A DNA stretch of 64,000 bases, from NCBI RefSeq assembly GCF_007725405.1, contig NZ_CP042163.1:1860001-1924000 (forward strand), given 5' to 3'. Position numbers and translations under genes: made by a program. The stretch is from Shouchella miscanthi (GTDB lineage: Bacteria > Bacillota > Bacilli > Bacillales > Bacillaceae_D). The notes under the pieces were generated by a model, which did no database searches, was not told the origin of the DNA, and worked only from the letters and a program-made list of their open reading frames with translations. Positions 8,942 through 59,538 of the stretch are shown piece after piece (the first letter of the stretch is position 1; the number at the start of each line of letters is the position of its first letter).

Positions 8942-8967
8942 GCCTGTACTTTTATCAAAGTGCAGGC
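8942..8967 (+). terminator. Intercistronic hairpin, possible partial terminator
   Basis: An 11-bp stem (GCCTGTACTTT with AAAGTGCAGGC, one G-U) and 4-nt loop lies between prpB and the dehydrogenase pair. Only TCTTCTCT follows, so termination would be incomplete; mRNA stabilisation or processing is an alternative. Confidence 0.5.
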
Positions 8968-8990
8968 TCTTCTCTAAAGGAGGGCTAACA

Positions 8991-23373: not shown

Positions 23374-24921
<1,548 letters not shown>

Positions 24922-24995: not shown

Positions 24996-26258
24996 ATGAA
25001 GCATTCCAAGTACTGGATCGTTGCGGCATGTGCGGTTGCGCTGTTGAGCGGTTGTACACGCTCAGCTGACACAATGGCAGATGGAAGAATAAAGCTCGAT
25101 TATTGGGTGTTCCTGTCAGGCGGGGATTTGTCCTACATGGAAGCGATTGTTGACGAGTATAACAGCAGTCAAGATGAAGTATATGTTGACATCATTTTGC
25201 AGGATTGGGATGACTATTACACCAAGATTGTTACGAGCGTAGCAGCTGATCGTGGACCGGATATTGGCATTTCCCATGCGGCTTCCTTGCCACAGTTAAT
25301 GAATCAAGGACTGTTGCAGCCGGTTGAGGAGATGATGACGGGAGCTGGGTTAGATTTTAATCGGTTCCCTGAGAATATTCGTGATGCCGTCGAAGTAGAG
25401 GATGAGCTCTATGCTGTTCCAATTGATACACACCCATTTATTCTCTATATCAATACAGATTTAGCAGAAGAAGCGGGTTTGCTGAATGAGCAAGGACTGC
25501 CTGAGATCGAGTTGACTCCAACGGGATTATCGGATTATTTTGCGGCAGCGAAAGAAGCGCTCCCTGATAAGACCCCATTAGCCATTTCAACAGGAGGTGT
25601 CGATACGTATCGGTGGTGGTGGACCGTCTACTTCCAAATGGGTGGAACTCCAATCTTCTCAGATGATTTGCGTGAACCTGAAATTACATTAGATCGAGAC
25701 ATAGCAATTCAAGCTGCGGAATACATTCATAATTTCTTCGGAGATGTTATCCCGATGCATATTGGTGATTTTTATGAAACCTTTCAGGCTGGAAACGCCG
25801 TTGGGATGATGACGGGTGTATGGGCAACGGGCATCTGGGAAGCTGCTGATCTAAATTTTACGGCCATGCCAATTCCTCAATCATTTGATGTTGAAGCTGC
25901 CCAAGGTGACGCACATACATTGATTGTTCCGATTAAAGAAGAACAATCTTCTGAGCGAAAACAAGCGATTGCTGAATTTATTTCGTTCGTTAGCGATGAA
26001 GGGGCTGAGTGGGCGAAGGCAGGTCATATACCCGCTCGAACCGATGTGGTAGAGTCATCTGAATTCCAAGACCAGCCGTTTCGCGCAGATTATGCGGAGG
26101 TCGCATCAAAGGTCGTGTTTACAAACAAAACGATTTATCAAAATCCAGCTGAAACAGACATGATTCGTGCGCTAGATGAGATTATGAGCAATCGCCTAAC
26201 GCCAGAAGCTGGAATTGATCAAATGTTGAAGGCTCTTGCTGTAACGACAAGACAATAA
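24996..26258 (+). CDS. Extracellular solute-binding lipoprotein of the CUT1 sugar ABC importer
   Basis: A 420-residue family 1 solute-binding protein. The N-terminal signal ends in lipobox LLSGC (Cys at 20), so the protein is anchored outside the membrane. The mature part has the usual two-lobe pattern: IKLDYWVFLSGGD, DDYYTKIVTSVAADRGPDI, YAVPIDTHPFILYIN and MMTGVWATG. Context (GH51 genes, AraP/AraQ-like permeases) points to arabino-oligosaccharide binding, comparable to AraN or AbnE, but the specificity is inferred. Mature protein is acidic. It is followed at 33 nt by the first permease gene. Confidence 0.9.
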   Translation: MKHSKYWIVAACAVALLSGCTRSADTMADGRIKLDYWVFLSGGDLSYMEAIVDEYNSSQDEVYVDIILQDWDDYYTKIVTSVAADRGPDIGISHAASLPQLMNQGLLQPVEEMMTGAGLDFNRFPENIRDAVEVEDELYAVPIDTHPFILYINTDLAEEAGLLNEQGLPEIELTPTGLSDYFAAAKEALPDKTPLAISTGGVDTYRWWWTVYFQMGGTPIFSDDLREPEITLDRDIAIQAAEYIHNFFGDVIPMHIGDFYETFQAGNAVGMMTGVWATGIWEAADLNFTAMPIPQSFDVEAAQGDAHTLIVPIKEEQSSERKQAIAEFISFVSDEGAEWAKAGHIPARTDVVESSEFQDQPFRADYAEVASKVVFTNKTIYQNPAETDMIRALDEIMSNRLTPEAGIDQMLKALAVTTRQ

Positions 26259-26291
26259 GCTGTGGCAAGTACCCGCTGAGGAGGGCATGAA

Positions 26292-27173
26292 ATGAAAAAG
26301 TTAACGTGGAAAGACGATCTCCGTCCCGTTCCGTTTTTGCTTGCTTTCTTTGTTGCTTATGTGCTTTTTACGATTTACCCAATCTTTAAAGGGATGCAGA
26401 TGAGCTTCTTTAATTGGACGTTAATTGAACAGCAAGAGTTTATTGGGCTGACCCATTACATCAATGTGTTAAGTGATCCGAATTTCTGGGAAGCATTTGG
26501 CAACACCTCATTATTCGTTCTGTTGTCAACGCCGACAATGGTCATTCTTGCTTTAGGGCTAGCGCTAATGGCGAATTTAAATACGCGCCTGCAAACGTTT
26601 TTTCGGGGCTCCTTCTTTATCCCAAGCATTTTGAGTGTATCGGTTATCTCGTTTGTCGCGATCTTCATGCTTCAGCCATACACCGGCGTTGTGAATAATC
26701 TCTTACAGGCCGTCGGTCTTGATGCAGAACCGTTTTGGCTAGCGACCCCTTCACTTGCTTGGGTGAGTATTATCGCAGTCACGCTCTGGTGGACGGTCGG
26801 TTTTAATATGATTTTATTTTTAACGGCGCTCCAAGGAATTCCTGATGAACTATATGAAGCTGCTGAAGTTGACGGGGCAACAAGGCAGCAGATGTTTTGG
26901 CAGATCACACTGCCACAGCTTCTCCCAATTGGTCGCTTAATCTTACTGCTCCAAGTCCTTGCTTCGTTTAAAGTTTTTGCACAAATTCTTTTAATTACTG
27001 ATGGAGGGCCCGGGACAACAACACGGCCAATCATCTTGTACATCTATGAAATGGGCTTCCAACGTTATGATTTAGGTTACGCTGCAGCGATGTCTTATCT
27101 ATTGTTTATGGTGTTGTTGGTGCTGTCTGTTATTCAATTGCGCTTAGGCGGAAAAGAGGGGAGAATGCTATGA
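26292..27173 (+). CDS. CUT1 sugar ABC transporter permease (AraP-like)
   Basis: A 293-residue inner-membrane permease of the MalF type with six predicted hydrophobic segments. The cytoplasmic EAA loop is PDELYEAAEVDGATRQQMFWQITLPQLLP, the contact to the ATPase. It pairs with the next gene, whose start overlaps its stop by 4 nt. No ATPase gene is present in this transport operon, as in B. subtilis araNPQ, where the shared MsmX ATPase drives several importers. Confidence 0.92.
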   Translation: MKKLTWKDDLRPVPFLLAFFVAYVLFTIYPIFKGMQMSFFNWTLIEQQEFIGLTHYINVLSDPNFWEAFGNTSLFVLLSTPTMVILALGLALMANLNTRLQTFFRGSFFIPSILSVSVISFVAIFMLQPYTGVVNNLLQAVGLDAEPFWLATPSLAWVSIIAVTLWWTVGFNMILFLTALQGIPDELYEAAEVDGATRQQMFWQITLPQLLPIGRLILLLQVLASFKVFAQILLITDGGPGTTTRPIILYIYEMGFQRYDLGYAAAMSYLLFMVLLVLSVIQLRLGGKEGRML

Positions 27174-28012
27174 GCCAGTCTGTGCTGACAACAAAACGCG
27201 ATCCGTTTCGCTGGTTAAAGGTGTCTATTGCTTTTCTGTCTGCGCTTGCCTTTTTATTCCCCATCGTCTGGATGTTTTTTGTGTCAATGAAGCCAGAGGG
27301 AACGGCAGCAAGCTCAGCCATCGATTGGTTTTTGCCGCCCTATACATTTAGCAACTACGTCAACATCATTGCCGGGAGCGACGTGTTTTTATGGATTTGG
27401 AATAGCTTCTTTGTTGGCGCGGTGACGACTTTGCTGACGCTTGTATTAACATCAATGGCGGCATTCGCTTTTTCGAAAATGCGCTTTCGCTATCGAAAAG
27501 CACTTTACCTATTCTTTCTTGCTGGGTTAATGGTGCCGGGAGAAGCAATGATCATCCCCCTTTATGAAATAGTCGGATCAATGGGTTTGCTTGATACGTA
27601 TGCGGGCTTAATTCTTCCTGGTATTGCTGCTCCTCTTGGTGTCATTATCTTAAAGAGCTTCTTTGATGGAGTTCCAAATGAGCTAATTGAAAGTGCTAGG
27701 CTAGATGGCTGTAGCGATTTCCGCCTGTATTGGAGTATTGTATTACCCCTTGCAAAAGCTGCGGTGGCGGCGGTAGGAATTTTAACCTTTATCGGTTCAT
27801 GGAACAATTTTCTCTGGCCATATTTAGCGATTATTTCTGAGGCTCTTTATACGCTGCCAGTCGGTATACCGATGTTTAACTCAAATTATTCAGAAACGTA
27901 TATATTGCCGATGACTGTAAACGCCATTGCATCACTACCTGTCATTATTGCATTCCTCTTTTTTGAGAAGCAGATTGTAAAAGGGGTAAGTTTCTCGGGA
28001 ATAAAAGGGTGA
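27170..28012 (+). CDS. CUT1 sugar ABC transporter permease (AraQ-like)
   Basis: A 280-residue permease of the MalG type with six hydrophobic segments and the EAA loop VPNELIESARLDGCSDFRLYWSIVLPLAK. The C-terminus (IVKGVSFSGIKG) is typical of the family. It forms the second half of the membrane channel with the preceding permease, overlapping by ATGA. Translation coupling and gene order are as in arabinan importers; the sugar specificity is inferred. Confidence 0.92.
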   Translation: MSQSVLTTKRDPFRWLKVSIAFLSALAFLFPIVWMFFVSMKPEGTAASSAIDWFLPPYTFSNYVNIIAGSDVFLWIWNSFFVGAVTTLLTLVLTSMAAFAFSKMRFRYRKALYLFFLAGLMVPGEAMIIPLYEIVGSMGLLDTYAGLILPGIAAPLGVIILKSFFDGVPNELIESARLDGCSDFRLYWSIVLPLAKAAVAAVGILTFIGSWNNFLWPYLAIISEALYTLPVGIPMFNSNYSETYILPMTVNAIASLPVIIAFLFFEKQIVKGVSFSGIKG

Positions 28013-28037: not shown

Positions 28038-28685
28038 TTGGAGGCTGCTGGTTTAAGAGGAATTGCCTTGCGTATTTGCGACTGGATCGTGCGCTTAGCT
28101 TATGTAAATGGTCTTTGGCTTGGTTTTTCCTTACTAGGCGGCGTGGTTTTAGGTTTTTTTCCAGCGCTGCGAGCAATGTTTGTGGTAATGAGGAAATGGT
28201 GCATGGATGAAGATGATTTTTCACTTGTTCCTTTGTTCTTCATAGAGTGGAAGCGCTTTTTTTGGCAGGCGAACAAACTTGGCTACACGGTTTTAAGCAT
28301 AGGAGCTGTTCTTGTTCTCGATTATATGATCGTGATGCAGCTTGCGTTTACTGGTTCTCAAGCAGTAGCGGCATTTCTTATTTTGTGCCTGATTGTGTAC
28401 GGATTAATGCTGCTGTTTATCGGTCCTGCTTTCGTCCATTACCCTAAGCAATCCCTCTATCCATTTTTGAAAAATGTCATGCTGTACGCCATCGCTTCGC
28501 TGTCTTATGCGCTTATAATGGGACTTTTTTTAAGCATAAGTTTGATTTTATTCTTACTGGTTCCACCGGCTGCAGTGTGCTTTGGTGGAAGTCTATTCGC
28601 TTGGATTACAACACATGTTAGCTTGCGCGCATTTGAACGTACAAATCAAATAATCGATTCAACGAGAGAGGCTGAAACGATATGA
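28038..28685 (+). CDS. DUF624 (YesL/YteU-type) membrane protein
   Basis: A 215-residue integral membrane protein of the DUF624 family, with about five hydrophobic segments and the family marks [16 protein letters not shown] near the N-terminus and FPAL.AMF after the first membrane segment. DUF624 proteins such as YesL often sit in operons for plant polysaccharide uptake (pectin, xylan, arabinan); their role, perhaps in assisting the importer, is unknown. The TTG start follows AAAGGGTGAT. Its stop overlaps the next ATG (ATGA). Confidence 0.8.
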
Positions 28686-30139
28686 CAAACAGTGTCAGAG
28701 CTACCATTGATTTAGAGAAAGCTGGATCTAAGATTAATTCAGCCATTTACGGGCATTTTGCTGAACATTTGGGGAGATGTATATACGAAGGGATCTGGGT
28801 TGGTGAAGACTCCCTCATTCCGAATAAAAAGGGACTCCGAACGGATGTATTAACAGCGTTGAAAGAGCTGCAAATCCCGGTTTTACGCTGGCCAGGAGGG
28901 TGTTTTGCCGATGAGTATCATTGGAAAGATGGCATTGGCCCCCGTGAAAAAAGAAGGAAAATGGTTAATACCCATTGGGGCGGAACGGTGGAAACGAATC
29001 AATTTGGCACGCATGAATTTATGTTGTTATGCGAAGAGATTGGAGCAGCCCCGTATATTAATGGAAATGTGGGTAGCGGCGAAGTGCTTGAGATGCAGGA
29101 ATGGGTGGAATATTTAACTGCTTCAGAGGGAAGTCCGCTGGCAGACCAGCGGGCGAAAAACGGCCGAGCTGAACCGTGGGACCTTCCTTACTTCGGTGTC
29201 GGTAATGAAAGCTGGGGTTGTGGTGGTCATATGCGCCCAGAGTATTATGCTGATTTATACAGACGTTATCAAACCTATGTGCGAAAATACGGCGACAAAC
29301 CCATTTATAAAATTGCCTGTGGTGCAAATGTCGATGATTACAACTGGACGGAGGTTTTAATGAAACAAGCGGCAGCGTTTATGGACGGACTGACTTTACA
29401 TTATTATACGGTGCCTAGTACATGGCAAAACAAAGGGGCTGCCACAGGGTTCAGTGAACAGGAATGGGATGAGACGATTCAGAAAGCACTGCATATGGAC
29501 GAATTAATTACAAAACATAGCGCGATAATGGACGAATACGACCCAGAAAAACGTGTTGGTTTAATCGTAGACGAGTGGGGCACTTGGTACGATGTGGAAC
29601 CTGGAACAAATCCGGGCTTCTTGTTCCAACAAAACAGTATCCGCGATGCGCTTGTTGCAGGTGTGACCTTGAATATTTTTAATCACCATGCAGACCGTGT
29701 GCACATGGCTAATTTAGCACAAACAATAAACGTGCTTCAGTCGATTGTTTTGACAGAAGGCGACAAGATGCTTAAAACGCCTACTTACCATGTGTTTGAT
29801 CTTTATAAAGTCCACCAAGGTGGGAGAGTCTTACCTATTGAGCTAATCGGGGAAGGATTACATCTATCGGCATCTTCTGATCCCTTGGGCAAGACACATA
29901 TTAGTGTCTGTAATCTCTCCCAATGGGAACCTGTGTCCCTAGAACTAGCCATTAACGGAGAGGCTGATTCAGTTCAGTGGCAAGCAACGATTTTAACCGG
30001 TGACAGACGAGATGCTCATAATACGTTTGAGCAGCCTAATCGAGTCAGTCCTAAACCGTTTACAGACTTTAAGATGGAAAATAATCAGCTTATTGCAGCA
30101 ATGCCACCCATGTCAGTTGCCGTCTTTTCACTTGTATGA
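28682..30139 (+). CDS. Second intracellular alpha-L-arabinofuranosidase, GH51
   Basis: A 485-residue cytoplasmic GH51 enzyme of a different subgroup from abfA. Acid/base Glu176 is in [11 protein letters not shown] and nucleophile Glu298 in [10 protein letters not shown]. The N-terminal [19 protein letters not shown] and [14 protein letters not shown] motifs mark the branch related to AbfB/Abf2-type enzymes. Two GH51 enzymes often differ in preference for alpha-1,5 main chain versus alpha-1,2/1,3 side chain linkages, so the pair may divide these tasks (inference). Its start overlaps the DUF624 stop and its stop overlaps the next small gene, so all three are coupled. Confidence 0.95.
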
Positions 30140-30436: not shown

Positions 30437-31354
30437 ATGGGTGGAGAAATGGAACTAGAATTAGATTTAACAGAACATTCGCTTCCTGTCTATGAAGCGT
30501 TAGCAAGCCGAATACGCTTAAATGTATTGCGTCTGCTAGCAGAACGGGCACTGAATATTCGTGAGCTCGCTGAATCACAGCAAGTGAGCAGTGCTATCAT
30601 GACGAAACATGTGCAAAAACTAGAAAAAGCAGGATTGATTCAAACCGAGCAAGTGCGCGGAAGAGCTGGCATGCAGAAGGTATGCAAACTACGGGTGAAA
30701 CAAGCAGGAATTCTATTCCCAGAAGGCGCTACCTCTGTCCGTTCTTATCATGAAAGCCATGTATCCGTTGGCCATTTCACTGATTTTCAAGTAGAACCAA
30801 CGTGTGGACTAGCGACTGGCGAAGCAATTATTGGGGAGTTTGATGAGCCAAGGTATTTCCTTGACCCCATGAGGGTAAATGCAAAAATCTTGTGGTTTTA
30901 TAAAGGGTTTGTTGAATACAAGCTATCTAACTTTATGCATGCTGGAGAGAAACCAAAAGAATTACAAATCTCATTAGAATTGTCATCAGAAGCGCCTTTT
31001 ACGAATGAAAACTGGCCGTCTGATATTTCATTTTATTTAAATGAGACAAATCTCGGTCAATGGAGAAGCCCTGGAGATTTTGGCGACCAACCAGGTAAAT
31101 ATACACCCGCATGGTGGCCGCGGACAATTAATCAATATGGCCTATTAAAGGTCATCCGAATTACCGAAGCAGGGACCTTTATTGATGGCAAACAGCTGTC
31201 AATCGTGACAATTGATGATGTGGCTATTCGCAACAAAGTATGGACATTTAAAGTGGCGGTAGAGGACGGCGGGAAAATTGGTGGCGTCACTTTATTTGGT
31301 TCCTCATTTGGCAACTACAATCAAGACATGGTTTTCCGTTTGTATTATGAGTAA
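30437..31354 (+). CDS. ArsR-type HTH transcriptional regulator with large C-terminal domain
   Basis: A 305-residue regulator. Residues about 15-85 form an ArsR-like winged helix (YEALASRIRLNVLRLL, then VSSAIMTKHVQKLEKAGLI). The remaining 215 residues form a beta-rich domain (VEPTCGLA, FLDPMRVNAKILWFYKGFVEYKLSNF, SLELSSEAPFTNENWPSDISFYLN, PAWWPRT), probably a sugar sensor fused to the DNA-binding head. I have seen this architecture near arabinofuranosidase genes, so control of this cluster is likely. Start is ambiguous: ATG 30437 (weak ribosome site) or ATG 30449 (GTGGAG only 2 nt away). It has its own promoter and a dyad. Confidence 0.8.
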   Translation: MGGEMELELDLTEHSLPVYEALASRIRLNVLRLLAERALNIRELAESQQVSSAIMTKHVQKLEKAGLIQTEQVRGRAGMQKVCKLRVKQAGILFPEGATSVRSYHESHVSVGHFTDFQVEPTCGLATGEAIIGEFDEPRYFLDPMRVNAKILWFYKGFVEYKLSNFMHAGEKPKELQISLELSSEAPFTNENWPSDISFYLNETNLGQWRSPGDFGDQPGKYTPAWWPRTINQYGLLKVIRITEAGTFIDGKQLSIVTIDDVAIRNKVWTFKVAVEDGGKIGGVTLFGSSFGNYNQDMVFRLYYE

Positions 31355-31362
31355 TGAGTTGC

Positions 31363-31385
31363 AGCGGAGGCGCTTTGCCTCCGCT
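31363..31385 (+). terminator. Hairpin between the two regulator genes
   Basis: AGCGGAGGC pairs perfectly with GCCTCCGCT around a 5-nt loop. No T run follows, so it is more likely an mRNA processing or attenuation element than a full terminator. Confidence 0.45.
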
Positions 31386-31404
31386 TAAACTGAAAGGAGC
31401 ACAA

Positions 31405-32298
31405 ATGAGTTTCTATGATAATGACCTAAGAAGCGAACCTTATTATCCAGTTGTTAAATTCTATTACTACAAAGAGTGGAGTCAATTCGAAATGAAGCCT
31501 CACGCACATGAAGCAATTGAATTGATGCATGTGCTATCAGGCAGTTGTAAAGTAGAAACAAAGACCGATAGCTACCAGCTTAAAAAAGGACAAATCATTT
31601 TCTTAGATGCGAACACAAGTCATCGGCTCAGTGTTCAAGAAAAATGCAGAATGTTCAACATTGAGATATCCTTTCAACAGGGTAGAACAGCTTTTCCTCC
31701 GTTTTGCGAGGTTTATAAAGAAAATGAAGCTTTGCGTTTAATGATCGATAATAAGAAACCACATATGCTTCTACACGATTCTGATGATACGTATCAATGC
31801 TTACGAAGACTTATTATGGAAGTAGATAAAAAAAGCCAACAAACCGATTTTATGGTGCAACTATTGATATGTGAGTATATTATACGTGTTGCGGGTTTGG
31901 CAGAAATTAATTACACAGAAACAGATCAACAATACACGAGTAGGGTCATTTCTTATATCCATCAGAACTATGATAGGGAAGTGAGTGTAGCAGAGATTGC
32001 GGATGCGGTTCATCTACACCCTGGATATTTACAGCGCGTCTTTAAAGTATCAACAGGCACATCGATTCATGAATTCCTCGTCTCCTATCGAATGAAGAAA
32101 GCAAAAGCAATGCTGGCGGAAACAGACATCAGCATTACGGATATTCCCCATTATATTGGCATGAATTCTCAACAGTATTTCAGTACAACGTTTAAGAAAT
32201 ATGAGCAATGTACGCCTAGTGCATATCGAAAAGCGCATCAATATAACGAAAAATTGAGAAGAAAAAGTGAGGATATTAAACATTCAATTGAAAGATAA
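31405..32298 (+). CDS. AraC-family transcriptional regulator
   Basis: A 297-residue AraC/XylS regulator. The N-terminal cupin (to about residue 110: HAHEAIELMHVLSGSC, QIIFLDANTSHRL) should bind a sugar, and the C-terminal pair of helix-turn-helix motifs (about 190-290: VSVAEIADAVHLHPGYLQRVFKVSTG, ITDIPHYIGMNSQQYFSTTFKKY) binds DNA. It lies just upstream of the araL-M-D-B-A operon and downstream of the ArsR-type regulator, suggesting control of arabinose genes. ATG 31405 has AAAGGAG 6 nt upstream; a longer frame from 31354 would be read through the hairpin. Confidence 0.9.
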   Translation: MSFYDNDLRSEPYYPVVKFYYYKEWSQFEMKPHAHEAIELMHVLSGSCKVETKTDSYQLKKGQIIFLDANTSHRLSVQEKCRMFNIEISFQQGRTAFPPFCEVYKENEALRLMIDNKKPHMLLHDSDDTYQCLRRLIMEVDKKSQQTDFMVQLLICEYIIRVAGLAEINYTETDQQYTSRVISYIHQNYDREVSVAEIADAVHLHPGYLQRVFKVSTGTSIHEFLVSYRMKKAKAMLAETDISITDIPHYIGMNSQQYFSTTFKKYEQCTPSAYRKAHQYNEKLRRKSEDIKHSIER

Positions 32299-32308: not shown

Positions 32309-32322
32309 TGAAAGCGCTTTTA
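32309..32322. promoter_or_regulatory. Candidate cre site (CcpA) before araL-M-D-B-A
   Basis: TGAAAGCGCTTTTA matches the cre consensus at 13 of 14 positions, 102 nt before the araL remnant. A glucose effect on arabinose genes through CcpA is well known in Bacillus. Confidence 0.7.
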
Positions 32323-32423
32323 TATGGTCGGATGTATGATAAAACCACTTAAACCATCAAATCAATAGTAGCCTGAGGTGTTGAAAATAGACACTCATTA
32401 GGAAAATGAGGTGAGGATTCCAA

Positions 32424-32789
32424 ATGCTTAAAGACATTGAAGGCATCCTGTTTGATATCGATGAAACCATCTTTCAGGATGATCGATTGATAGAGATGGT
32501 GAAGGAGATAATTGAAGTTGCAACTGGAAGAAAGACTAAATTGGTTGTTGGCAAACCATCTTGCTTTATGGCAGAAGCGACCCTTGATTTTTTGCGAGCG
32601 GTTCCAAAAAGCTGTCTCATTGTTGGTGATCGTATAGAATCTAATATTGGATTTGGCCGGTTGCAGGGAATGAAAACAGCGCTTGTCTTAATTTGTAACG
32701 CTAGCAATGTAGAAGCCGATCATCTTCCGCAAAGAATCCGCCCTGTTTCTATTCTCGGAAGTATCGCTCAGCTAAGGAGGTACATATGA
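32424..32789 (+). CDS. araL: AraL-type HAD phosphatase with internal deletion
   Basis: A 121-residue frame that joins the two ends of an AraL/NagD phosphatase (about 270 residues in B. subtilis). The start has [13 protein letters not shown], the HAD nucleophile motif, and the second part runs from [22 protein letters not shown] to [24 protein letters not shown], which is the C-terminal core with the motif-III lysine and motif-IV aspartates. The roughly 145-residue cap and middle region between them are missing, in frame. AraL dephosphorylates sugar phosphates in the arabinose pathway; this version is probably inactive, or kept for coupled translation. ATATGA overlaps the araM start. GAGGTGAGG precedes the ATG. 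Confidence 0.8.
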
Positions 32790-33973
32790 ATTTACGATTA
32801 CTAGAAGAGCACATTAGTCGGTCAGAAGAAAAGCTTAATCCTTTACCACTTGAAACAATCGTTGTGGAAAAGAATGCATTAAAAAAAGCAGCAGCATTTG
32901 TTGCAAGTCGGGTCAAGCAAAGTATTCTGCTTGTTGCTGATAGCCAGACGTACGCGGCAGCAGGAAACCAATTGACTGATTTGCTACAGGAGGAAGCTGT
33001 TTTTGTTAATATTCATCTCGTTAAGCCGAATAAAAACGGCGATGTGCTTGCTGATGAACGCTCCTTAATCGATGTTTTTTTAAGCGTTAAAGAAGAAACC
33101 GAACTGCTTTTAGCGGTTGGCTCAGGCACAATTCATGATCTTGTTCGCTTTATAAGCGGAAAGACAGGAAAATCATTCATCTCCATTCCTACAGCTCCAT
33201 CAGTCGATGGCTTCACGTCGCTCGGGGCACCGATTGTTGTGAGAGGGGAGAAAAAGACGTACCAACTTGTGGCTCCAGTTGCTTTGTTTGCTGACATAAC
33301 TGTATTGCAAAAGGCGCCACCTGCTTTAATTGCCGCAGGTTTTGGGGATATGGTTGGGAAATTTACGTCGCTTTTAGATTGGCACATTGGATCCATTGTG
33401 ACTAATGAACCGTATTCTGCTTTTGTTGCTGAACGAACAAAAGAAGCGCTCCAAGCTTGTCTTGACCATGTTGAGGAAATTAATACAAAAACAGAAAAGG
33501 GCGTACAGCGATTAATGGAGGCTCTGTTACTATCCGGGCTGGCAATGGCTCTTTTTGGTCAATCTCATCCCGCCTCTGGAGCTGAGCATCATCTGTCTCA
33601 TTATTGGGAAATGAAGGCGTTGGAGAATGAGGAGAAACAGCTATTGCATGGTGCTAAAGTTGGTTTATCAACCTTAGTCATTACTCAATTCTATAAAGAA
33701 ATCATCAAGCCAGAACTTCACAGTTTAATGGGTGCGGAAGAAGCAAAGCAGATTCGCCAATTAATTGAAGAATTGCCGGACGTGGAATTCATTCAATCAC
33801 AACTTGAACAAGTAGGCTGGTCTAAGGAGCTTGTGCCTATTCCACAAAGCCTGATTGAGCAGAGCTTAAAGGAAGCTCATCTACTAAGAGATCGTTACAC
33901 GCTTTTGCGCTTGTACAACGACTACAAGGGAGGAAGAAGCGATGCTTACCGAACTAAAACAGCAAGTATATGA
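32786..33973 (+). CDS. araM: Glycerol-1-phosphate dehydrogenase AraM
   Basis: A 395-residue iron-alcohol dehydrogenase-like enzyme. AraM in B. subtilis is a nickel-dependent sn-glycerol-1-phosphate dehydrogenase, forming G1P from dihydroxyacetone phosphate for archaeal-type ether lipids (heptaprenylglycerol). The nucleotide-binding [13 protein letters not shown] and [13 protein letters not shown] motifs, metal ligands in GFGDMVGK and the [13 protein letters not shown] block are present. It overlaps araL by 4 nt and araD by 32 nt, so it is firmly within the arabinose operon, as in B. subtilis; why is unknown. Confidence 0.93.
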
Positions 33974-34637
33974 TGCGAATATGGCTTTACCAGAGCATGG
34001 ACTTGTAACGATGACATGGGGGAATGCGAGCGGTATTGATAGAAGTCGAAATATTGTTGCGATTAAGCCTAGTGGACTGGATTATGCAGACATGACTCCA
34101 GACGATATGGTGCTCGTCTCGCTTGATGGAGAACGAATAGAAGGTTCTCTCCGCCCCTCCTCCGATCTCCAAACGCATCTGGTCCTATACCGTACTTTTG
34201 CTGAAATTGGAGGAATTGTTCACACGCATTCAACTTGGGCGACAGGTTGGGCCCAGGCTGGAAAATCGATTCCTGCTTTTGGTACAACACATGCCGATTA
34301 TTTTTACGGTGACATTCCTTGCACAAGAGAAATGAAAGAAGCAGAAATCCGCGGCAGCTATGAGCGGGAAACGGGAAACGTAATTGCGGAAACGTTCGAA
34401 TTAGGAAACCCGCTGCAGATGCCAGCCGTGCTTGTTCACGGGCATGCTCCTTTTACATGGGGACGTACTCCGAAAGAAGCCGTTTATCATGCGGTTGTCT
34501 TGGAAGAGGTAGCGAAAATGGCTTCTAATACGATCGGCTTAAACCCTCAAGCATCTGGAATTTCACAAACGCTACTCGATCGTCATTACTTGCGTAAGCA
34601 TGGAGAACACGCCTATTACGGTCAAGAAGGGAAGTGA
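33942..34637 (+). CDS. araD: L-ribulose-5-phosphate 4-epimerase
   Basis: A 231-residue class II aldolase/epimerase converting L-ribulose 5-phosphate to D-xylulose 5-phosphate, which enters the pentose phosphate pathway. Zinc ligands are in [14 protein letters not shown] and [12 protein letters not shown]; the N-terminal WGNASGID and KPSGLDY phosphate-binding loops are seen. The ATG at 33942 has GGAGGAAG 4-6 nt upstream and lies 32 nt before the araM stop. It is followed by araB 6 nt later. Confidence 0.96.
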
Positions 34638-34643: not shown

Positions 34644-36332
34644 ATGAACAAGCGCTATACAATTGGAATCGATTATGGAACAGAGTCAGGCAGAGCGGTA
34701 TTAATTGATTTAGCAGATGGAGCAGAAGTTGCTGAGCATGTTACGCCTTACGCACATGGTGTAATGGCTAAGCAATTGCCAAAAGGAGGGGTGGTGCTGG
34801 AGCCTGAGTGGGCACTTCAACATCCTCGAGATTATATTGATGTGCTTGAGCAATCTGTTCCTAAAGTGTTGACAGAGGCGGGTGTTCATCCAAGCGATGT
34901 AATCGGCATTGGCATTGATTTTACCGCATGTACGATGCTGCCAATTGATGAGGATGGCGAGCCCCTTTGCTTCCATACATCTTTTGCGAACCGTCCACAT
35001 GCATGGGTGAAATTATGGAAACACCATGCGGCCCAGGATGAAGCAAATGAGATCAATCGAATCGGCGCAGAAAGAGGAGAAGCATTTCTTAAGCGCTATG
35101 GAGGCAAGTATTCTTCAGAATGGATGATCGCAAAGATATGGCAAATTTTTAATGAGGATCGGCAATTATTTGATGAAGCGGATGCATTTCTTGAAGGCAC
35201 CGACTGGGTGACCGCACAGATGACCGGAACGATTGTACGCAATAGCTGCACTGCTGGGTATAAAGCGATGTGGCACAAGCAGGACGGTTATCCTGAGGAT
35301 ACTTTTTTTGAAGCCTTGCATCCTGATTTAAAGAGACTAACAGCAACAAAGTTACGAGGTCATATTCGCGCTCCAGGTGAGACAGCTGGCAATTTGATGA
35401 AAGAGATGGCTGACCGAATTGGACTCTTGCCAGGTATCGCTGTCGCTGTTGGTAATGTAGACGCACATGTTTCCGTACCGGCAACAGGGGTTGTAACTCC
35501 AGGGAAGCTTGTGATGGCGATGGGGACGTCCATTTGTCATCTCGTTCTTGCAGAAGAAGAGAAAGAAGTAGAAGGAATGTGCGGTGTAGTTGAAGACGGA
35601 ATTGTCCCTGGCTATTTTGGCTATGAAGCAGGACAATCGGCTGTTGGCGACATTTTTGCTTGGTTTATGGAGCATGGCGTCTCATCCGATCTTGTTAATG
35701 AAGCGAAGCAGAAAAACGTACCGCTTCATGCGTTACTAGAAGAAAAAGCGGCTGCTTATCAACCAGGTGAAACCGGTTTGCTCGCATTAGATTGGTGGAA
35801 TGGAAACCGCTCAACATTGGTTGATACAAACTTATCAGGGGTCATTCTTGGAATGACGCTGCAAACGAAATCAGAAGAAATTTACCGAACGTTGCTGGAA
35901 GCTACGGCATTTGGAACAAAGAAAATCATTGATGCGTTTACAAAAGCCGGCGTTGAAGTAAATGAACTGGTTGCCTGTGGTGGCTTACCGCAGAAAAACA
36001 ATTTGTTAATGCAAATTTTTGCTGATATTACGAATTTGGAAATAAAAGTGGCAGCATCCAAACAAACACCAGCGCTTGGGGCAGCTATGTATGCAAGCGT
36101 CGCAGCAGGTAAAGCGGCGGGTGGCTATGCAACGATTTTTGCAGCAGCAGAAAAGATGGCGCGTGTACAGGATAGGTCCTATAAGCCTAACCCGGAACGG
36201 GCGCAAGTCTACAAAGAAATGTATAAGGAATATAGCAAGCTTCATGATTATTTTGGGAAAGGAGAAAACGATGTGATGAAAACACTTCGGAGCGTGAGAG
36301 ATAAAACAAAAGGAGGGGTTGTTCATGCTTAA
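34644..36332 (+). CDS. araB: Ribulokinase
   Basis: A 562-residue FGGY-family kinase that phosphorylates L-ribulose using ATP. N-terminal [16 protein letters not shown] is the phosphate-binding strand; [15 protein letters not shown], the [14 protein letters not shown] and [21 protein letters not shown] segments complete the family pattern. Length matches AraB of Bacillus (about 560). The last 8 nt of its frame overlap the araA start. Fourth gene of the araL-M-D-B-A operon. Confidence 0.96.
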
Positions 36333-37788
36333 ACAAAAAACGTCACACTTTTGGTTTATTGCTGGTAGTCAGCCCTTATACGGGCAAAAAACGATTGATC
36401 AAGTCGCTGCTCATGCGGAAGAGATCGTCAAAGGCTTGAATGAGTTGCTGCCAGAACAGCTTATCTTAAAACCGGTCGCAACTTCCCCTGAACGTATTAC
36501 TGCACTCTTGCGGGAAGCGAGTATGGATGAAAACTGTGCAGGAATTATTACGTGGATGCACACGTTTTCACCGGCAAAGATGTGGATTGCGGGACTAAAA
36601 GAATTGACGAAACCGATGCTTCACTTACACACCCAGTACAATCGTGACATTCCGTGGTCCACGATTGATATGGATTTTATGAATTTAAATCAGTCGGCTC
36701 ACGGTGACCGTGAATTTGGCTTTATGGTTTCAAGAATGGGGATTAACCGTAAGGTAATAGCCGGACACTGGCAGGACTCGAATGTCGCCAATCGAGTCGG
36801 TGATTGGATGAAAACAGTTCGCGCCTATCAAGAAAGCAAGCAATTAAAGATTGCTCGTTTCGGTGACAATATGCGAGAGGTAGCGGTGACAGAGGGAGAT
36901 AAGGTTGAGGCGCAAATTCAGCTTGGCTGGTCTGTTTCCGGTTACGGTATCGGTGATTTAGTCGAAACGATTGAAGCCGTTAATGACCAAGATGTCGCCA
37001 CATTAATGGAAGAATATCGCAGCCTGTACACATTCCATCCAGATGCGGACGTTCGCGCGATTGAAGAACAGGCACGAATTGAGCTTGGGCTTGAAACCTT
37101 TCTTGCACGAGGAAACTATCGCGCTTTTTCAACGACTTTCGAAGATTTACATGGAATGAGCCAGCTACCAGGACTGGCGGCACAGCGGCTAATGGCAAAA
37201 GGGTATGGTTTTGCTGGAGAAGGGGATTGGAAAACAGCCGCATTTTTGAGGGTACTTAAAGTGATGGCAGGTAACAGTGGAACGTCGTTTATGGAGGATT
37301 ACACAAATCATTTAGAGCAAGGGAATGAACTGATCTTAGGCTCACATATGCTAGAAGTATGCCCGACGATCGCAGCTGAAAAGCCGACGATTGTCGTAGA
37401 ACCCCTTTCTATGGGCAACAAAGCGGACCCGGCAAGGCTTGTTTTCAAAGGCAAAGCAGGACACGCGCTTAATGCAGCAATAATGGATGTCGGTTCTCGT
37501 TTTCGAATTGTCGCAAACGAAGTGGAAGCGGTCGAGAATCAGCAGGAAATGCCACAGCTTCCTGTAGCTAGTGTCTTGTGGAAACCGCTTCCTTCGTTTT
37601 CGGAAGCAACGGAGGCATGGATCTATGCTGGTGGGGCGCATCACACAGTTTTGTCATACGAGATTACGAAAGAGCAGCTGGCTGATTGGTCAAGTCTAAT
37701 GGATGTGGAATGCCTTGTAATTGGAAAAGAGTCGAGTATAGAGCAAATACGCAAGGAGTTGTTCTGGAACGAGAAGTCTTATCGTTAA
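36325..37788 (+). CDS. araA: L-arabinose isomerase
   Basis: A 487-residue enzyme converting L-arabinose to L-ribulose, the first cytoplasmic step. Key Mn-binding and catalytic segments are [58 protein letters not shown] and the C-terminal [16 protein letters not shown] 36325 is 8 nt after AGGAGG and inside the end of araB; the TTG two codons upstream is weaker. No clear terminator follows; the next unit has its own cre site. Confidence 0.96.
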
Positions 37789-37886: not shown

Positions 37887-38969
37887 ATGAAAAAATACAT
37901 TGGAAGTTTCGTCGTACTTGGTTGTGTTGTTTTTACAGGAGCATGTTCTGAGGAAGGATCAGGAGAAGGATCAGGGGAAGGCAAAGGAACGATTGGAATT
38001 GCCATGCCAACTCAATCCTCTGAACGCTGGATTGCTGATGGTAATCACATGGTCTCGTATTTTGAAGACCTAGGTTATGAAACGGATCTACAATATGCGG
38101 AGGATGTCGTAGAAAATCAAGTTTCCCAGATTGAAAATATGATCACACGTGGTGTAGATGCACTTGTTATCGCTTCTGTTGATGGAGAAGCCTTAACAAC
38201 AGTATTAGAATCAGCAAATGCACAAGAGATTCCAATCATCTCCTATGACCGTCTCATTATGAATTCAGAGTTTGTCGATTACTATGCGACTTTCGATAAT
38301 TTTGAAGTAGGTGTTCTGCAAGGTCAATACATCGTTGATGAGTTAGACCTAGAGAATGAAGAAGGACCATTTAACATTGAGTTATTTGGTGGCTCACCAG
38401 ATGACAATAATGCCCATTTCTTCTTTAATGGAGCGATGTCTGTCCTTCAACCCTATCTAGATGAAGGGAAATTAAATGTGCAAAGTGGTCAAACCGATTT
38501 TAATCAAATTGCCATTCTTCGTTGGGACGGTGCAGCTGCTCAGAGTAGAATGGATAATTTGTTGAGTTCTAACTATGGTGGTAGCGAAGACCTTGATGCT
38601 GTATTAGCGCCAGCGGATTTATTAAGTATTGGTATTCTAGCTTCACTAAAAAACTCTGGATTTACAGCTGATGATATGCCAATTTTGACAGGGCAAGATG
38701 CAGATATTCCTTCAGTGAATGCGCTTATTGCAGGAGAACAAGCGATGACTGTTTTTAAAGATACACGCGTTCTTGCAGAAAAAGCTGTTGAAATGACAGA
38801 GGCGGTTCTGCAAGGCGATGAGCCTGATGTGAATGATACAGAAACCTATGACAATAATTCCAAAGTGGTTCCTTCATTCCTAGAGACTCCTGTTGTTGTG
38901 ACGATTGATAACTATGAAGAAATCTTAATAGACAGCGGCTATTACGAGGCGGATCAGTTAAATCAATAA
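37887..38969 (+). CDS. chvE: CUT2 monosaccharide-binding lipoprotein (ChvE-like)
   Basis: A 360-residue pentose/hexose-binding lipoprotein: signal with lipobox TGAC (Cys20), then a Gly/Ser/Glu linker containing two SGEG repeats, then a type I periplasmic-binding fold ([70 protein letters not shown]). The pattern is that of the multiple-monosaccharide receptor ChvE, which binds arabinose, galactose and glucose. Here L-arabinose uptake is likely from context. AGGAGGG precedes the ATG. The mature protein is strongly acidic. Confidence 0.9.
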
Positions 38970-38977
38970 GGGTTATT

Positions 38978-39003
38978 GCGGTTTTCTCATGAGAGAGAAC
39001 CGC
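38978..39003 (+). terminator. Intercistronic hairpin after the binding-protein gene
   Basis: GCGGTTTTCTC pairs with GAGAGAACCGC (one G-U) around a 4-nt loop, with CTTTATA after it. Such hairpins commonly keep binding-protein mRNA more abundant than that of the ATPase and permease. Confidence 0.6.
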
Positions 39004-39026
39004 CTTTATATAGGAGGTGACCGCAA

Positions 39027-40565
39027 ATGGCGGACGTTCTTTTGGAAATGAAACAAATAACAAAGGAATTCCCTGGTGTTAAAGCGTTGGACAATGTGAA
39101 CTTGATCGTGAAACAAGGGGAGATTCATGCTTTATGTGGAGAAAATGGAGCTGGTAAATCGACACTAATGAAAGTGTTAAGTGGTGTCTATCCGTTTGGT
39201 ACATATAACGGTGAGATCTTTTTGAATAGAGGAACGTGTCAATTCAAAGATTTAAAGCAAAGTGAAGCGGAAGGAATTGTCATTATTCACCAGGAGCTTG
39301 CCTTAATCCCTGAGTTAAGCATTGCGGAAAATATCTTTCTAGGAAATGAGCGCAAGAGATTTGGTGTCATTGATTGGGATGCGACTGCGAAAGAAACAAA
39401 ATCCTTATTAAAAAAAGTGAATTTAGATGAGCCCCATGATTCGCTCATTAAGCACATTGGCGTAGGGAAGCAACAGTTAGTAGAAATTGCAAAAGCATTG
39501 GCAAAAAAAGTAAAGTTACTCATCTTAGATGAACCAACTGCTTCATTAAATGAAACCGATAGTGATAACCTTCTAAATCTGCTTGTGGAATTAAAAGAAC
39601 AAGGTATTACTTCTATTATTATTTCTCACAAACTGAATGAGATTAGACAAGTTGCCGATGCTGTAACGATTTTACGCGATGGCAAGACAATTGAAACGTA
39701 TGATCTAGAAGAAAAAGAGATTAATGAAGATGACATTATTAAAGGAATGGTTGGTAGAAGTCTAACGAATCGCTATCCTCCGAGCAAATCAGAGATTGGT
39801 AGTACGATCTTTTCAGTCGAAAAATGGAATGTGTATCATCCGGTTCAGCGAGAAAGACAAATTATCATGGATGCTGATTTTCATGTAAGGCGTGGAGAAA
39901 TCGTTGGTCTCGCTGGTCTAATGGGTGCTGGTCGAACGGAATTTGCCATGAGCATATTTGGCAAGGCGTACGGGACACAAATTACTGGAACGATTAAGAA
40001 AGACGGGAAAGTAATAGACCTTCAGTCTGTCAGTGAAGCAATTAAGCAGGGTTTGGCATATGCAACGGAAGATCGAAAATCATACGGGCTCGTTTTGATG
40101 AACGACATTAAAGAGAACATTTCGTTGGCTAGTTTAAATAAGCTTTCTTCACGCGCCATCATTGATGAGCAAAATGAAGTAAGGGTTGCTGAAGAATTTA
40201 AACGGAAGTTGCATATAAAGGCGCCGACAATCTTGCAAGAGACTGGTAAATTAAGCGGAGGAAATCAACAAAAGGTTGTTTTAAGTAAGTGGATTTTTTC
40301 TGATCCAGATGTTTTGTTTTTAGATGAACCTACTAGAGGGATTGATGTTGGAGCCAAATATGAAATTTATACCATTATTCGAGAACTAGCAGCGACAGGG
40401 AAAGCGATCGTCCTTATTTCTTCTGAACTACCAGAATTGATGGGGATGTGTGATCGTGTATATGCGATGAATAAAGGTCAGATTACAGGCGAGCTCGCTA
40501 AAGATGAACTTTCACAAGAAAGATTAATGAAATTAATGACGAAAACAAGAGAGGTTTCCCCATGA
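39027..40565 (+). CDS. gguA: CUT2 sugar ABC transporter ATP-binding protein
   Basis: A 512-residue double ABC ATPase of the MglA/XylG/GguA type that energises monosaccharide import. First domain: GENGAGKST near residue 40, [31 protein letters not shown]. Second domain: the divergent Walker A-like GLMGAGRTE, the [10 protein letters not shown] signature and [20 protein letters not shown]. It overlaps the permease start by ATGA. AGGAGGTGA precedes the ATG. Confidence 0.94.
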
Positions 40566-41722
40566 AAGCGCTATTGAGCGTCATCCAAAATAACGTACGT
40601 CAATACAGTATGACATTTGCATTGTTGCTTATTATGATTCTATTCCAACTCTTAACAGATGGTATTCTACTACAGCCATTAAATATCACAAATTTGATTT
40701 TACAGAACAGTTATATTCTTATACTTGCTATTGGTATGGTTCTTATTATTATTACGGGGCATATTGATTTGTCAGTAGGGTCGATTGCTGCTTTTATTGG
40801 AGCACTATCTGCTATCCTAATGATACAAATGAATCTTGACCCCATTTTATCTGTGTTAATTTGCTTATTGGTCGGTGCGTTAGTTGGAGCTTGGCAAGGG
40901 TTTTGGGTTGCTTATGTCAAAATTCCTGCATTTATTGTGACCCTTGCTGGGATGCTGATCTTTAGAGGAATCACGTTAATTATGTTGCAAGGGCAATCAA
41001 TTGCACCATTTCCTCCATCCTTTCAACGATTAAGTTCAGGATTTCTTCCAGATGTGTTTAATGGTTCTTCTTTGCACCTGTTATCCTTGTTAATTGGTGT
41101 GTTGCTTTGTGCCATTCTCATTTTTATTGAGTTGCGCGGGCGGAAGAGAAAACAAAACAACGGTACGGATGTGCTAAATCCGACATTATTCATTTTGAAA
41201 CTTGTTGGTATCGCAGCCGTTATTTTAGGCTTTACGTATATCTTGGCCAGCTATCGCGGAATTCCTTATATTCTCATCTTGTTGATTGCGTTAATTGCTT
41301 TTTACGCATTTCTAACGAAGAAGACAGTCTTTGGTCGTCATATCTATGCAGTAGGTGGAAATGAAAAAGCCGCAGCTCTTTCCGGTATTAAGACGAAGCG
41401 CGTAACCTTTATGGTGTTTGTGAACATGGGGATGCTCGCAGCCTTGTCTGGTCTGATTTTCGCGGCTCGGTTAAATGCGGCTACACCGCGTGCAGGTAAC
41501 TTATTTGAATTAGATGCCATTGCAGCTGCTTTTATTGGTGGAGCATCCGCTTACGGGGGTGTTGGAACAGTCATCGGCGCAGTAGTAGGTGGCCTTGTTA
41601 TGGGTGTTATGAATAACGGAATGTCCATCTTAGGTCTCGGAATTGATTGGCAACAGGCGATCAAAGGGCTCGTTTTACTAGCGGCTGTTGCGTTTGACAT
41701 TATGAATAAGAAGAGAGGATAG
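40562..41722 (+). CDS. gguB: CUT2 sugar ABC transporter permease
   Basis: A 386-residue branched-chain/ribose-type permease with about nine to ten hydrophobic segments. Family motifs: [62 protein letters not shown] and [33 protein letters not shown]. The long polar insertion between the middle helices (about residues 140-220) is usual for the GguB/multiple-monosaccharide branch. It is 3 nt before the GH4 glycosidase gene, with which it is cotranscribed. Confidence 0.93.
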
Positions 41723-41725
41723 TAT

Positions 41726-43231
41726 ATGTCATTTAAAGTCACCTTTATTGGAGCAGGAAGCATTGGCTTTACAAGAATGTTACTACGAGATTTACTATCT
41801 GTCCCTGAATTTAAGCAAGTTAGAATTTCGTTCACAGACATCAATGCTGAGAATCTAGAGATGGTAACGGCTCTTTGTCAACGAGATCTAAAAGAAAATG
41901 GCTTTAACACCGAGATACAAGCAACACTTAATCGTAAAGAAGCACTTAAAGATGCACGCTATATTTTTTCGGTTGTTCGAATTGGTGGATTGGAGGCATT
42001 TGAACAAGATATCTCGATTCCTTTGAATTATGGTATTGATCAATGTGTTGGAGATACCTTAAGCGCAGGCGGCATTATGTATGGTCAAAGGGGCATTCAG
42101 GAAATGCTGGCAATTTGCAAAGATATTCGCGAAGTAGCCGAACCAAACTGCTTATTACTAAATCATGCCAATCCTATGGCAATGTTAACATGGGTGTGTC
42201 AGACGTACGGAGAAGTAAATACGGTAGGCCTCTGTCACGGCGTGCAAGGTGGCCATAGACAAATTGCAACTGTTTTTGGACTAGACAAAAAAGAGGTGGA
42301 TATAGTCTGTGCGGGTATTAACCACCAAACTTGGTACATTCAAATAAAACATAACGGAAATGAGTTAACACCGATGCTACTTGATGCATTTGAACAACAT
42401 CCTGAATACAGTAAGACAGAAAAAGTAAGAATCGACATGCTCAAACGCTTTGGGTATTACAGTACGGAATCGAATGGTCATCTAAGTGAATATGTACCGT
42501 GGTATCGTAAGCGCTCTGATGAAATAATGGATTGGATTGATTTAGGGACATGGATTAATGGCGAAACAGGCGGGTATTTACGTGTATGCTCAGAAGGTCG
42601 GAATTGGTTTAAAGAAGACTTCCCAAATTGGATGCAGGATCCAGTTCTTATCTATTGCAATGAAAATCGTAGTGAAGAACATGGTTCATATATTATTGAA
42701 GCCCTTGAAACAGGGCGTGTCTATCGTGGCCATTTTAATCGTGTCAACAATGGGACGATTACCAATCTACCAAAAGATTGTGTCATTGAAGCACCTGGTT
42801 ATGTAGATCGAAATGGATTGACTATGACGTTCATTGGAGATTTGCCCCTTGGTTGTGCGGCCGTCTGCAACGCGAGCATCCAGGTTCAGCGGCTAGCAAT
42901 CATGGCAGCTGTAACCGGAGATGAACAGCTATTGCGCCAAGCTTTTATGATGGATCCGTTAACGGGTGCCGTCTGTACACCACCTGAAATTTGGCAGCTG
43001 GTAGATGATCTATTAATTGCGCAAGAAGAATGGCTTCCTCAATATGAAAAAAGTATTGAAAAAGCAAAGCAAAGACAGTCAACTGAGCCTAGGCTAGTGA
43101 CAAAAAAATCATCAGGAGCAGCAAGATTAAAGCAAAAAACGATTGAAGAGCTAAAGGAAAATCGTGCAGAAGCAATAAAAAACGCACAAGCAGCTGACAA
43201 AGCGAATAATCGACCCGCGCGTTCCACTTGA
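41726..43231 (+). CDS. GH4 glycosidase (alpha-galactosidase/MelA type) with extended tail
   Basis: A 501-residue NAD- and Mn-dependent GH4 enzyme. Rossmann motif IGAGSIGFTRML is at residues 8-19, NHANPMAM near 146, the metal ligand Cys170 in CHGVQGG and His200 in AGINHQTWY. Of the GH4 subgroups it is most like MelA alpha-galactosidase, not 6-phospho-glucosidases. It is about 70 residues longer than MelA, because of a lysine/alanine-rich charged helical tail from about residue 435. It is cotranscribed with the monosaccharide importer inside an arabinose island, so its true substrate may be alpha-galactosides or beta-L-arabinopyranosides (inference). A strong terminator follows. Confidence 0.85.
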   Translation: MSFKVTFIGAGSIGFTRMLLRDLLSVPEFKQVRISFTDINAENLEMVTALCQRDLKENGFNTEIQATLNRKEALKDARYIFSVVRIGGLEAFEQDISIPLNYGIDQCVGDTLSAGGIMYGQRGIQEMLAICKDIREVAEPNCLLLNHANPMAMLTWVCQTYGEVNTVGLCHGVQGGHRQIATVFGLDKKEVDIVCAGINHQTWYIQIKHNGNELTPMLLDAFEQHPEYSKTEKVRIDMLKRFGYYSTESNGHLSEYVPWYRKRSDEIMDWIDLGTWINGETGGYLRVCSEGRNWFKEDFPNWMQDPVLIYCNENRSEEHGSYIIEALETGRVYRGHFNRVNNGTITNLPKDCVIEAPGYVDRNGLTMTFIGDLPLGCAAVCNASIQVQRLAIMAAVTGDEQLLRQAFMMDPLTGAVCTPPEIWQLVDDLLIAQEEWLPQYEKSIEKAKQRQSTEPRLVTKKSSGAARLKQKTIEELKENRAEAIKNAQAADKANNRPARST

Positions 43232-43256
43232 GGCTGATAAAACGAATAAGTGTAAA

Positions 43257-43298
43257 GTAGAAGTAAAATCGTTAAAGCCGATTTTACTTCTTTTTTCG
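43257..43298 (+). terminator. Intrinsic terminator of the CUT2-GH4 operon
   Basis: AGAAGTAAAATCG pairs perfectly with CGATTTTACTTCT around a 7-nt loop, followed by TTTTT. It ends the arabinose island. Confidence 0.9.
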
Positions 43299-43343
43299 TT
43301 TGAAATGGGTTTGGATGATGGCGACTGACATGGACATTTACTT

Positions 43344-44186: not shown

Positions 44187-44228
44187 AGGAAAGCCCCCTA
44201 AAGAGTTAAGAAATTAATTCTAAACTCT

Positions 44229-44254
44229 ATACCCACTCTATATAAATTATAAAC
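44229..44254 (-). promoter_or_regulatory. Sigma-B-like promoter of the RsbR paralogue
   Basis: On the minus strand GTTTAT and GGGTAT are separated by 14 nt; the -10 is perfect and the -35 is one base off the sigma-B consensus GTTTAA / GGGTAT. It lies 43 nt before the start codon. Confidence 0.65.
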
Positions 44255-44428
44255 CTGTTTTAAATGAAATGTATAAAAATTCATGTATAAAGAGGACCGT
44301 ATCGGCAACATCGCTTCAGCCGGTCACTCTGTTTAACTAGTCGGTTGAGTAGGTTTCATCGATTCTGTGATTCAACTAAAAGATAATGAAGCTATAATGA
44401 GAATGAAAATAAGTATAAGAAAAACCAA

Positions 44429-59537: not shown

Positions 59538-59538
59538 G

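Follow-up and report, generated by a model that had tools for sequence, protein, structure and literature searches.

A long-form GH4 glycosidase at the end of an arabinose operon in Shouchella miscanthi, a candidate for the removal of terminal beta-L-arabinopyranose or alpha-D-galactose

In glycosidases of family GH4, NAD+ oxidises C3 of the sugar, a metal aids the enolate, elimination breaks the bond, water adds, and C3 is re-reduced (PMC7676230, accessible part). Beta-L-arabinopyranosidase activity is reported for two other families, GH27 and GH36, and bifidobacterial enzymes are named for freeing beta-L-Arap-(1-3)-L-Ara and alpha-D-Gal-(1-3)-L-Ara from arabinogalactan-protein side chains (both from the accessible sections of PMC10688797). 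In Geobacillus MC52 and MC61, an arabinopyranosidase gene is tabulated immediately behind the L-arabinose isomerase gene (PMC4428132, accessible excerpt). The sole genetically studied relative of the gene described here in the literature searched, as far as the accessible parts of the sources go, is melA of Sinorhizobium meliloti, which heads an alpha-galactoside operon. A GH4 beta-L-arabinopyranosidase was absent from the titles and abstracts among the matches listed, in which subscription journals are sparsely covered.

The gene studied here lies in a 64,000-nucleotide stretch of the Shouchella miscanthi chromosome; this whole stretch is called the window below. The original prediction had placed the gene in an arabinose importer operon. 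The features are:

23401..24921, + strand: GH51-type alpha-L-arabinofuranosidase, named from sequence
24996..28012, + strand: CUT1-type sugar importer, named from sequence (binding protein 24996-26258, permeases 26292-27173 and 27170-28012)
28682..30139, + strand: GH51-type alpha-L-arabinofuranosidase, named from sequence
30437..31354, + strand: regulator with MarR/ArsR-like HTH, family search
31354..32298, + strand: AraC-family regulator, family search; orthologue of the regulator paired with GH4 in relatives
32309..32340, + strand: cre-like box (32309-32322) and TATGAT (32335-32340), pattern search
32424..32789, + strand: HAD-type protein, 121 aa, family search
32786..33973, + strand: AraM-type dehydrogenase, named from sequence and position
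33942..34637, + strand: AraD-type ribulose-5-phosphate 4-epimerase, named from sequence and position
34644..36332, + strand: AraB-type ribulokinase, named from sequence and position
36319..37788, + strand: AraA, L-arabinose isomerase (NF002795, 772 bits)
37887..38969, + strand: ChvE, sugar-binding protein (NF040907, 528 bits)
39027..40565, + strand: GguA, ATP-binding protein (NF040905, 862 bits)
40562..41722, + strand: GguB, multiple-monosaccharide ABC permease, CUT2 (NF040906, 593 bits)
41726..43231, + strand: GH4 glycosidase of the long-form clade, 501 aa, ATG start (Pfam, NCBIfam, alignment, tree)
43259..43291, + strand: terminator-like hairpin with T-run, 13-pair stem

All the genes from the first GH51 gene to GH4 lie on the + strand in the order given, and GH4 is the final gene of the arabinose operon. 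Its predicted position 3 nt behind a CUT2 permease gene was confirmed, with the GguB stop at 41722. The NCBIfam name of this permease is "multiple monosaccharide", so the importer stands as CUT2 but not strictly as an arabinose importer. The terminator expected after the gene was recovered by computation from the sequence as the 13-pair stem and T-run at 43259-43291; the region scanned for hairpins gave five terminator-like matches against 5.4 expected from shuffles, none of the other four having as long a stem. The binding protein of the CUT1 importer had a weak match to GanS (29 bits, under the cut-off). Binding-protein families were dropped as a clue to substrate, as no equivalog was matched at its cut-off.

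Other features of the window were recorded in passing. The HAD-type gene (32424-32789) encodes 121 aa, compared to 264 aa in Alkalicoccobacillus murimartini (L045), its middle portion apparently having been lost. The gap between ChvE and GguA contains an 11-pair hairpin (38978-39003) of a kind able to raise binding-protein levels. Farther away are what we take, by eye, to be a methylcitrate-type cluster (5426-11350) and presumably a tryptophan-to-kynurenine-type cluster (58713-61440).

Both Pfam domains of GH4 were detected well past their cut-offs (PF02056 at 152 bits and PF11975 at 175 bits), and in Pfam and NCBIfam the protein matched GH4 models alone, not those of GH27 or GH36. The metal residues Cys170 and His200, described as intact in the original prediction, are indeed present along with His171 and Asn199; all four are invariant in an alignment of 32 sequences (A1). 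A maximum likelihood phylogeny of GH4 was calculated from 37 sequences and 432 columns, with AglA left out and the root placed by us on the 6-phospho enzymes. Proteins of about 490-505 aa, here called long forms, make up one clade (support 95); its sister is the clade of MelA (80), and the node uniting them has a support of 100; GlvA and LplD fall outside both. The 501-aa protein groups apart from the clade of E. coli MelA, to which it is 35% identical, so that the designation "MelA-type" fits it only loosely. Twenty-eight alignment columns discriminate the groups, being uniform in 17 of 17 long forms while no fewer than 11 of 12 MelA types differ there (in 8 columns, by a gap). They include R85, Y119, G172, N250-G251, and E280; as motifs, the long form has CHG for CHS, TESNGH for TESSEH, and Y119 for Arg. 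The motifs QET and CN/CD of 6-phospho enzymes (as in 5C3M and 1U8X) are replaced by VGDT and CHG. A position among the 6-phospho enzymes, named beforehand as the outcome that would overturn the predicted substrate, was not found: the protein lies outside those clades, and from this placement and the motifs 6-phospho specificity was rejected. The sequence comparisons thus support a non-phospho enzyme of a clade sister to the alpha-galactosidase (MelA) clade.

The clade is widespread. In a contig scan, the best 80 of 257 relatives were 69-84% identical over nearly the full length, and their hosts include Shouchella, Terribacillus, Domibacillus, Paenibacillus, Cohnella, and Alicyclobacillus, among others. 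Plasmid records added long forms at about 55-59% from Rhizobium, Sinorhizobium, Sulfitobacter, and Qingshengfaniella. Public annotation of the relatives reads "alpha-glucosidase/alpha-galactosidase". The protein extends about 60 residues past the end of E. coli MelA, and 20 of these 60 are Lys or Ala. Across 31 long forms, the mean majority share is 0.80 for residues 464-497, 0.87 for 1-441, and 0.61 for 442-463, and the GAAR core of the tail is retained in the Rhizobium long form; the tail is therefore a trait of the clade. The predicted Lys/Ala-rich tail, absent from E. coli MelA, is thus real, but it is about 60 rather than 70 residues long and is normal for the clade; a fusion or an oddity of a single gene was rejected.

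The enzyme might be a plain alpha-galactosidase acting on raffinose- or melibiose-type sugars, housed in the arabinose operon since both sugars are plant-derived. Consistent with this, it passes the NCBIfam model PRK15076, "alpha-galactosidase", with 593 bits (cut-off 486). The low identity to E. coli MelA and the three motif changes weigh against it, as does the presence of a separate 433-aa GH4 in the same genome (L126:7072-8373, 37% identical to the 501-aa protein), which is regarded as the MelA-type gene of the strain because of its 48% identity to E. coli MelA and its PRK15076 score of 644. The third GH4 protein of this strain falls among 6-phospho-beta-glucosidases in the tree. A different glycoside, for example an alpha-glucoside or alpha-xyloside, might be hinted at by AglA of Thermotoga maritima (1OBB), which also has CHG at the metal Cys, and the closest solved GH4 structures are distant (best 135 bits with a single sequence, 200 bits with a profile). 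However, the AglA model of NCBIfam gave 138, far under its cut-off of 650, and the long-form clade is sister to MelA; we consider this alternative quite improbable.

The alphaproteobacterial relatives bear on the alpha-galactosidase reading from both sides. In Rhizobium etli, S. meliloti, Sulfitobacter, and Qingshengfaniella, the long form is clustered with an ABC importer and a MelA-type GH4, and the R. etli importer is annotated as an alpha-galactoside importer. The S. meliloti melA gene (SMb21648) was matched by position (AraC, long GH4, importer, MelA-type GH4) to a locus of another strain (L134), whose GH4 is 55% identical to ours; the genetics of that operon, in the accessible text, favor an alpha-galactosidase, as do the clusters and the tandem of long form and MelA type in Alicyclobacillus (L048:10001-12858). 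The MelA-type agaL2 could itself provide the alpha-galactosidase in the rhizobial cluster. Long-form and MelA-type genes share one cluster in Alicyclobacillus (L048) and in four alphaproteobacteria (L129, L130, L131, and L134), and this recurrent pairing suggests two different activities. In Sulfitobacter, a gene whose annotation reads "tryptophan halogenase family" (L131:6502-7998) is located between the two GH4 genes.

Linkage to arabinose genes was counted in 41 genomes of the family, with the long form called at E <= 1e-90 and AraA at E <= 1e-100. The long form is present in 23 of these genomes, and in 18 of the 23 its neighbors are arabinose-type genes; at least four arrangements occur. 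In the first genus (g1, 11 linked genomes), nine have GH4 after GguB or, in the case of G001, placed no more closely than 4 kb from AraA, and in G007 and G012 it is immediately behind AraA. The five linked genomes of a second genus (g2) have the order HTH or GH51, AraC, GH4, HAD, AraM, with AraA elsewhere; a GH42 gene is upstream in three g2 loci (L045, L176, and L177). Two genomes of a further genus (g5) have GH4, GH51, aldose epimerase, AraD, AraA, an AraR-type regulator, and GH43. GH4 without arabinose linkage was found in G019, G024, G035, G037, and G038; in G024 (L046), a ChvE-type gene is about 4.5 kb downstream of it. No match to GalK or GalT was found in 89 related stretches or in the window (as a positive control, the same GalK query matches four other genomes), which, with the repeated arabinose linkage, speaks against the plain alpha-galactosidase; on balance, we regard that reading as unlikely, if a serious competitor.

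The link of GH4 to arabinose genes in the family is real. Presence alone is less specific. All 23 genomes with GH4 also have AraA, but the nesting of GH4 within GalK and XylA is equally complete (Fisher tests 5e-7, 2e-6, and 1e-4, relatedness ignored). The distribution of GH4 among genomes therefore does not point to arabinose in particular, and co-occurrence with AraA was rejected as proof of function. Among the best 80 of the 257 loci, an arabinose-type gene is near GH4 in 12, importer and regulator genes counted, and the remaining 68 have none nearby at the thresholds used; the 80 loci and the 41 genomes overlap (L035/G004, L045/G014), and the two counts are not independent.

The low count in the wider set would suit a GH4 gene that is a mere passenger of the operon, functionally unconnected to arabinose. 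Two of the 18 linked copies are interrupted (G012:C1:84345-85845 in G012 and L169:8169-9739 in G028), as is that of Terribacillus halophilus (L043:10001-11503); in G028 a sequencing error is possible, because the GH51 gene there is split too. The passenger reading could also draw on an apparent swap of GH4 by recombination. When the window is aligned with S. oshimensis (L035), DNA identity is 93-99% at 38640-41339, 70-84% at 41490-43439, 89-91% until 44189, 74-82% at 44190-44489, and 85-98% beyond; the low-identity block hugs GH4 within operons that are otherwise about 96% identical. Compared to G004, dS is 2.46 for GH4 and 0.12-0.38 for seven operon neighbors. From the local drop in identity and this dS, it seems that one lineage, that of the window or that of S. 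oshimensis, received a different version of just GH4. The frame is intact in both lineages, so the gene was kept under selection; with a dN of 0.09 at saturated dS, this selection is purifying. That, the linkage retained in 18 of 23 family members despite rearrangement, and a promoter layout and regulator in common with relatives make the passenger reading very improbable.

Neighbor counts for the regulator are out of 74, as in 6 of the best 80 of 257 loci (L073, L074, L081, L088, L106, and L109) a simple ORF caller retained no GH4 ORF. In 57 of the 74, the gene immediately upstream of GH4 is of AraC type, and all 57 belong to a single similarity cluster. In the window, the AraC gene is about 9.4 kb upstream of GH4. 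Its product matched 13 of 14 AraC proteins sampled from GH4 loci at 181-376 bits, the exception being L044 at 58 bits (12 of the 14 are immediately upstream of GH4 and the other two farther upstream; L048, the fifteenth locus, lacks one). AgpT, the R. etli AraC, MelR, and the AraC of the 433-aa paralogue scored only 58-70 bits, and the window AraC is therefore the orthologue of the regulator paired with GH4; AgpT, at 58 bits, was rejected as an orthologue of the Bacillales protein.

In a consensus over 58 gaps between AraC and GH4, a TACAAT-type -10 appears together with a cre-like box; L044 is one of the exceptions. The window has the box TGAAAGCG right behind the AraC stop, followed by TATGAT 18 nt after it (32309-32340). 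Two sets of relatives have the same layout behind AraC. In the Shouchella stretches related to the window, it is followed by the arabinose genes with GH4 at the end, and L148 and L149 have a weaker -10; in g2 genomes, for example that of A. murimartini, the spacing is 18 or 19 nt and GH4 comes first, ahead of HAD and AraM. AraC and the cre-bearing promoter thus precede GH4 alone in relatives and the entire ara operon in the window. One-mismatch matches to the cre pattern number 17 in the window against 6.2 expected (both strands of each site counted), and a second cre-type pattern (TTGATAACG...) was not above chance there (11 against 8.6). We infer that production of GH4 is tied to the arabinose operon through this predicted promoter.

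Six of the 41 family genomes contain a GH27 protein over the cut-off. Two of these were searched against the PDB and matched 4NX0, the GH27 beta-L-arabinopyranosidase Abp, at 701 and 724 bits; for one of the two the best match, narrowly, was 3CC1, whose PDB entry names a putative alpha-N-acetylgalactosaminidase. The remaining GH27 proteins are 69-76% identical to the first searched. In three sister genomes (G024, G038, and G039), GH27 is located at the ara cluster. G035 has an importer, GH4, a weakly AraC-like gene (20%), and an Abp-type gene in succession, and G037 has the orthologous importer (80% for the binding protein, 89% and 84% for the permeases) ahead of the Abp-type gene alone. In a Paenibacillus locus (L057), the Abp-type gene is about 2.4 kb from GH4. 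GH27 over the cut-off occurs in 1 of 18 genomes with ara-linked GH4 versus 5 of 10 other AraA-positive genomes (p 0.013, relatedness ignored; two matches under the cut-off, in G014 and G015, are left out of the count). Of the five in the second group, which have GH27 but no ara-linked GH4, four carry GH4 elsewhere; therefore the two enzymes are not simply interchangeable, and strict replacement of Abp by GH4 is weakened. The long-form clade may consist of NAD-dependent beta-L-arabinopyranosidases that replaced the GH27 Abp in the arabinose clusters of some Bacillaceae, a possibility we hold tentatively. The pairings are ambiguous, in that an alpha-galactosidase would be complementary beside Abp and a beta-L-arabinopyranosidase beside a MelA-type GH4, and for this reason an arabinopyranosidase alone is not rated above tentative.

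Family searches of the strain's own genome found no match to GH36, GH27, or GH53; there is one GH43, and GH39 appeared as a weak match, under the cut-off, within a GH51-type gene. Lacking GH53 and a GH39 over the cut-off, the strain is, by these families, not equipped for arabinogalactan breakdown. Arabinogalactan fragments had been predicted as the source; breakdown of the polymer itself by this strain is doubtful, and small imported glycosides seem the likelier substrate. From the family, clade, operon, promoter layout, and linkage, we infer the following activity, substrate, and induction, with a probability of roughly one half: GH4 would be an intracellular exo-glycosidase, dependent on NAD+ and Mn2+ and tied to the arabinose operon, that acts on terminal beta-L-arabinopyranose or alpha-D-galactose of short arabinose-containing plant glycosides. 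The cell would import these glycosides, GH4 would remove the terminal galacto-configured pyranosyl residue by C3 oxidation, elimination, water addition, and C3 reduction, as in the rest of the family, and the freed L-arabinose would enter the AraA-AraB-AraD pathway. Cutting either of the two bifidobacterial disaccharides yields L-arabinose, which would explain the location of the gene. Counted for the proposal were the GH4 domains and metal residues, the non-phospho clade, the linkage in 18 of 23 genomes, the lack of GalK and GalT nearby, the retained AraC and cre/-10 arrangement, the Abp-type neighbors, and the gene order tabulated for Geobacillus MC52 and MC61; counted against it were the S. 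meliloti operon, the nesting in GalK and XylA, GH4 elsewhere in four of five GH27 genomes, and the 68 arabinose-free loci among the best 80 of 257. The predicted pair of sugar ends thus survives with support from the clade, the linkage, the Abp-type neighbors, and the lack of a GH27 or GH36 match in the strain's own genome, and with the S. meliloti alpha-galactoside operon against it; between the two sugars, we lean slightly towards beta-L-arabinopyranose. If the clade does prefer that sugar, the "alpha-glucosidase/alpha-galactosidase" annotations need correction, GH4 gains an activity not found for it in the literature searched, and two unrelated chemistries, the redox one of GH4 and that of GH27, perform one task in operons of one kind.

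Compared to known systems, E. coli MelA shares with this protein the GH4 domains, the metal Cys and His, the non-phospho motifs, and a sister clade; the identity is 35%, and CHG, TESNGH, Y119, and the tail of about 60 residues belong to the Shouchella protein. S. meliloti MelA (SMb21648) and R. etli AgaL1 are of the long-form clade itself, with 55-56% identity, the core of the tail, and an AraC-type neighbor, but their clusters contain an importer and a second, MelA-type GH4, and their AraC (AgpT) is not orthologous to the Bacillales one. Thermotoga AglA is of the same family and has the CHG motif in common, whereas Bacillus LplD, also of this family, has CHE and is outside the long clade. The bifidobacterial GH36 beta-L-arabinopyranosidase, for which intracellular cleavage of beta-L-Arap-(1-3)-L-Ara is proposed, belongs to another family and another operon, with a GH39 enzyme (PMC10688797, accessible sections). 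The slot of the arabinopyranosidase gene behind L-arabinose isomerase in Geobacillus MC52 and MC61 is that of GH4 in G007 and G012 (PMC4428132, accessible excerpt). Abp of Geobacillus stearothermophilus (4NX0) and GH4 belong to unrelated families, and the GH27 mechanism is hydrolytic and NAD-free; the two are alike in the kind of locus, an arabinose cluster, and by this analogy they possibly share a substrate class.
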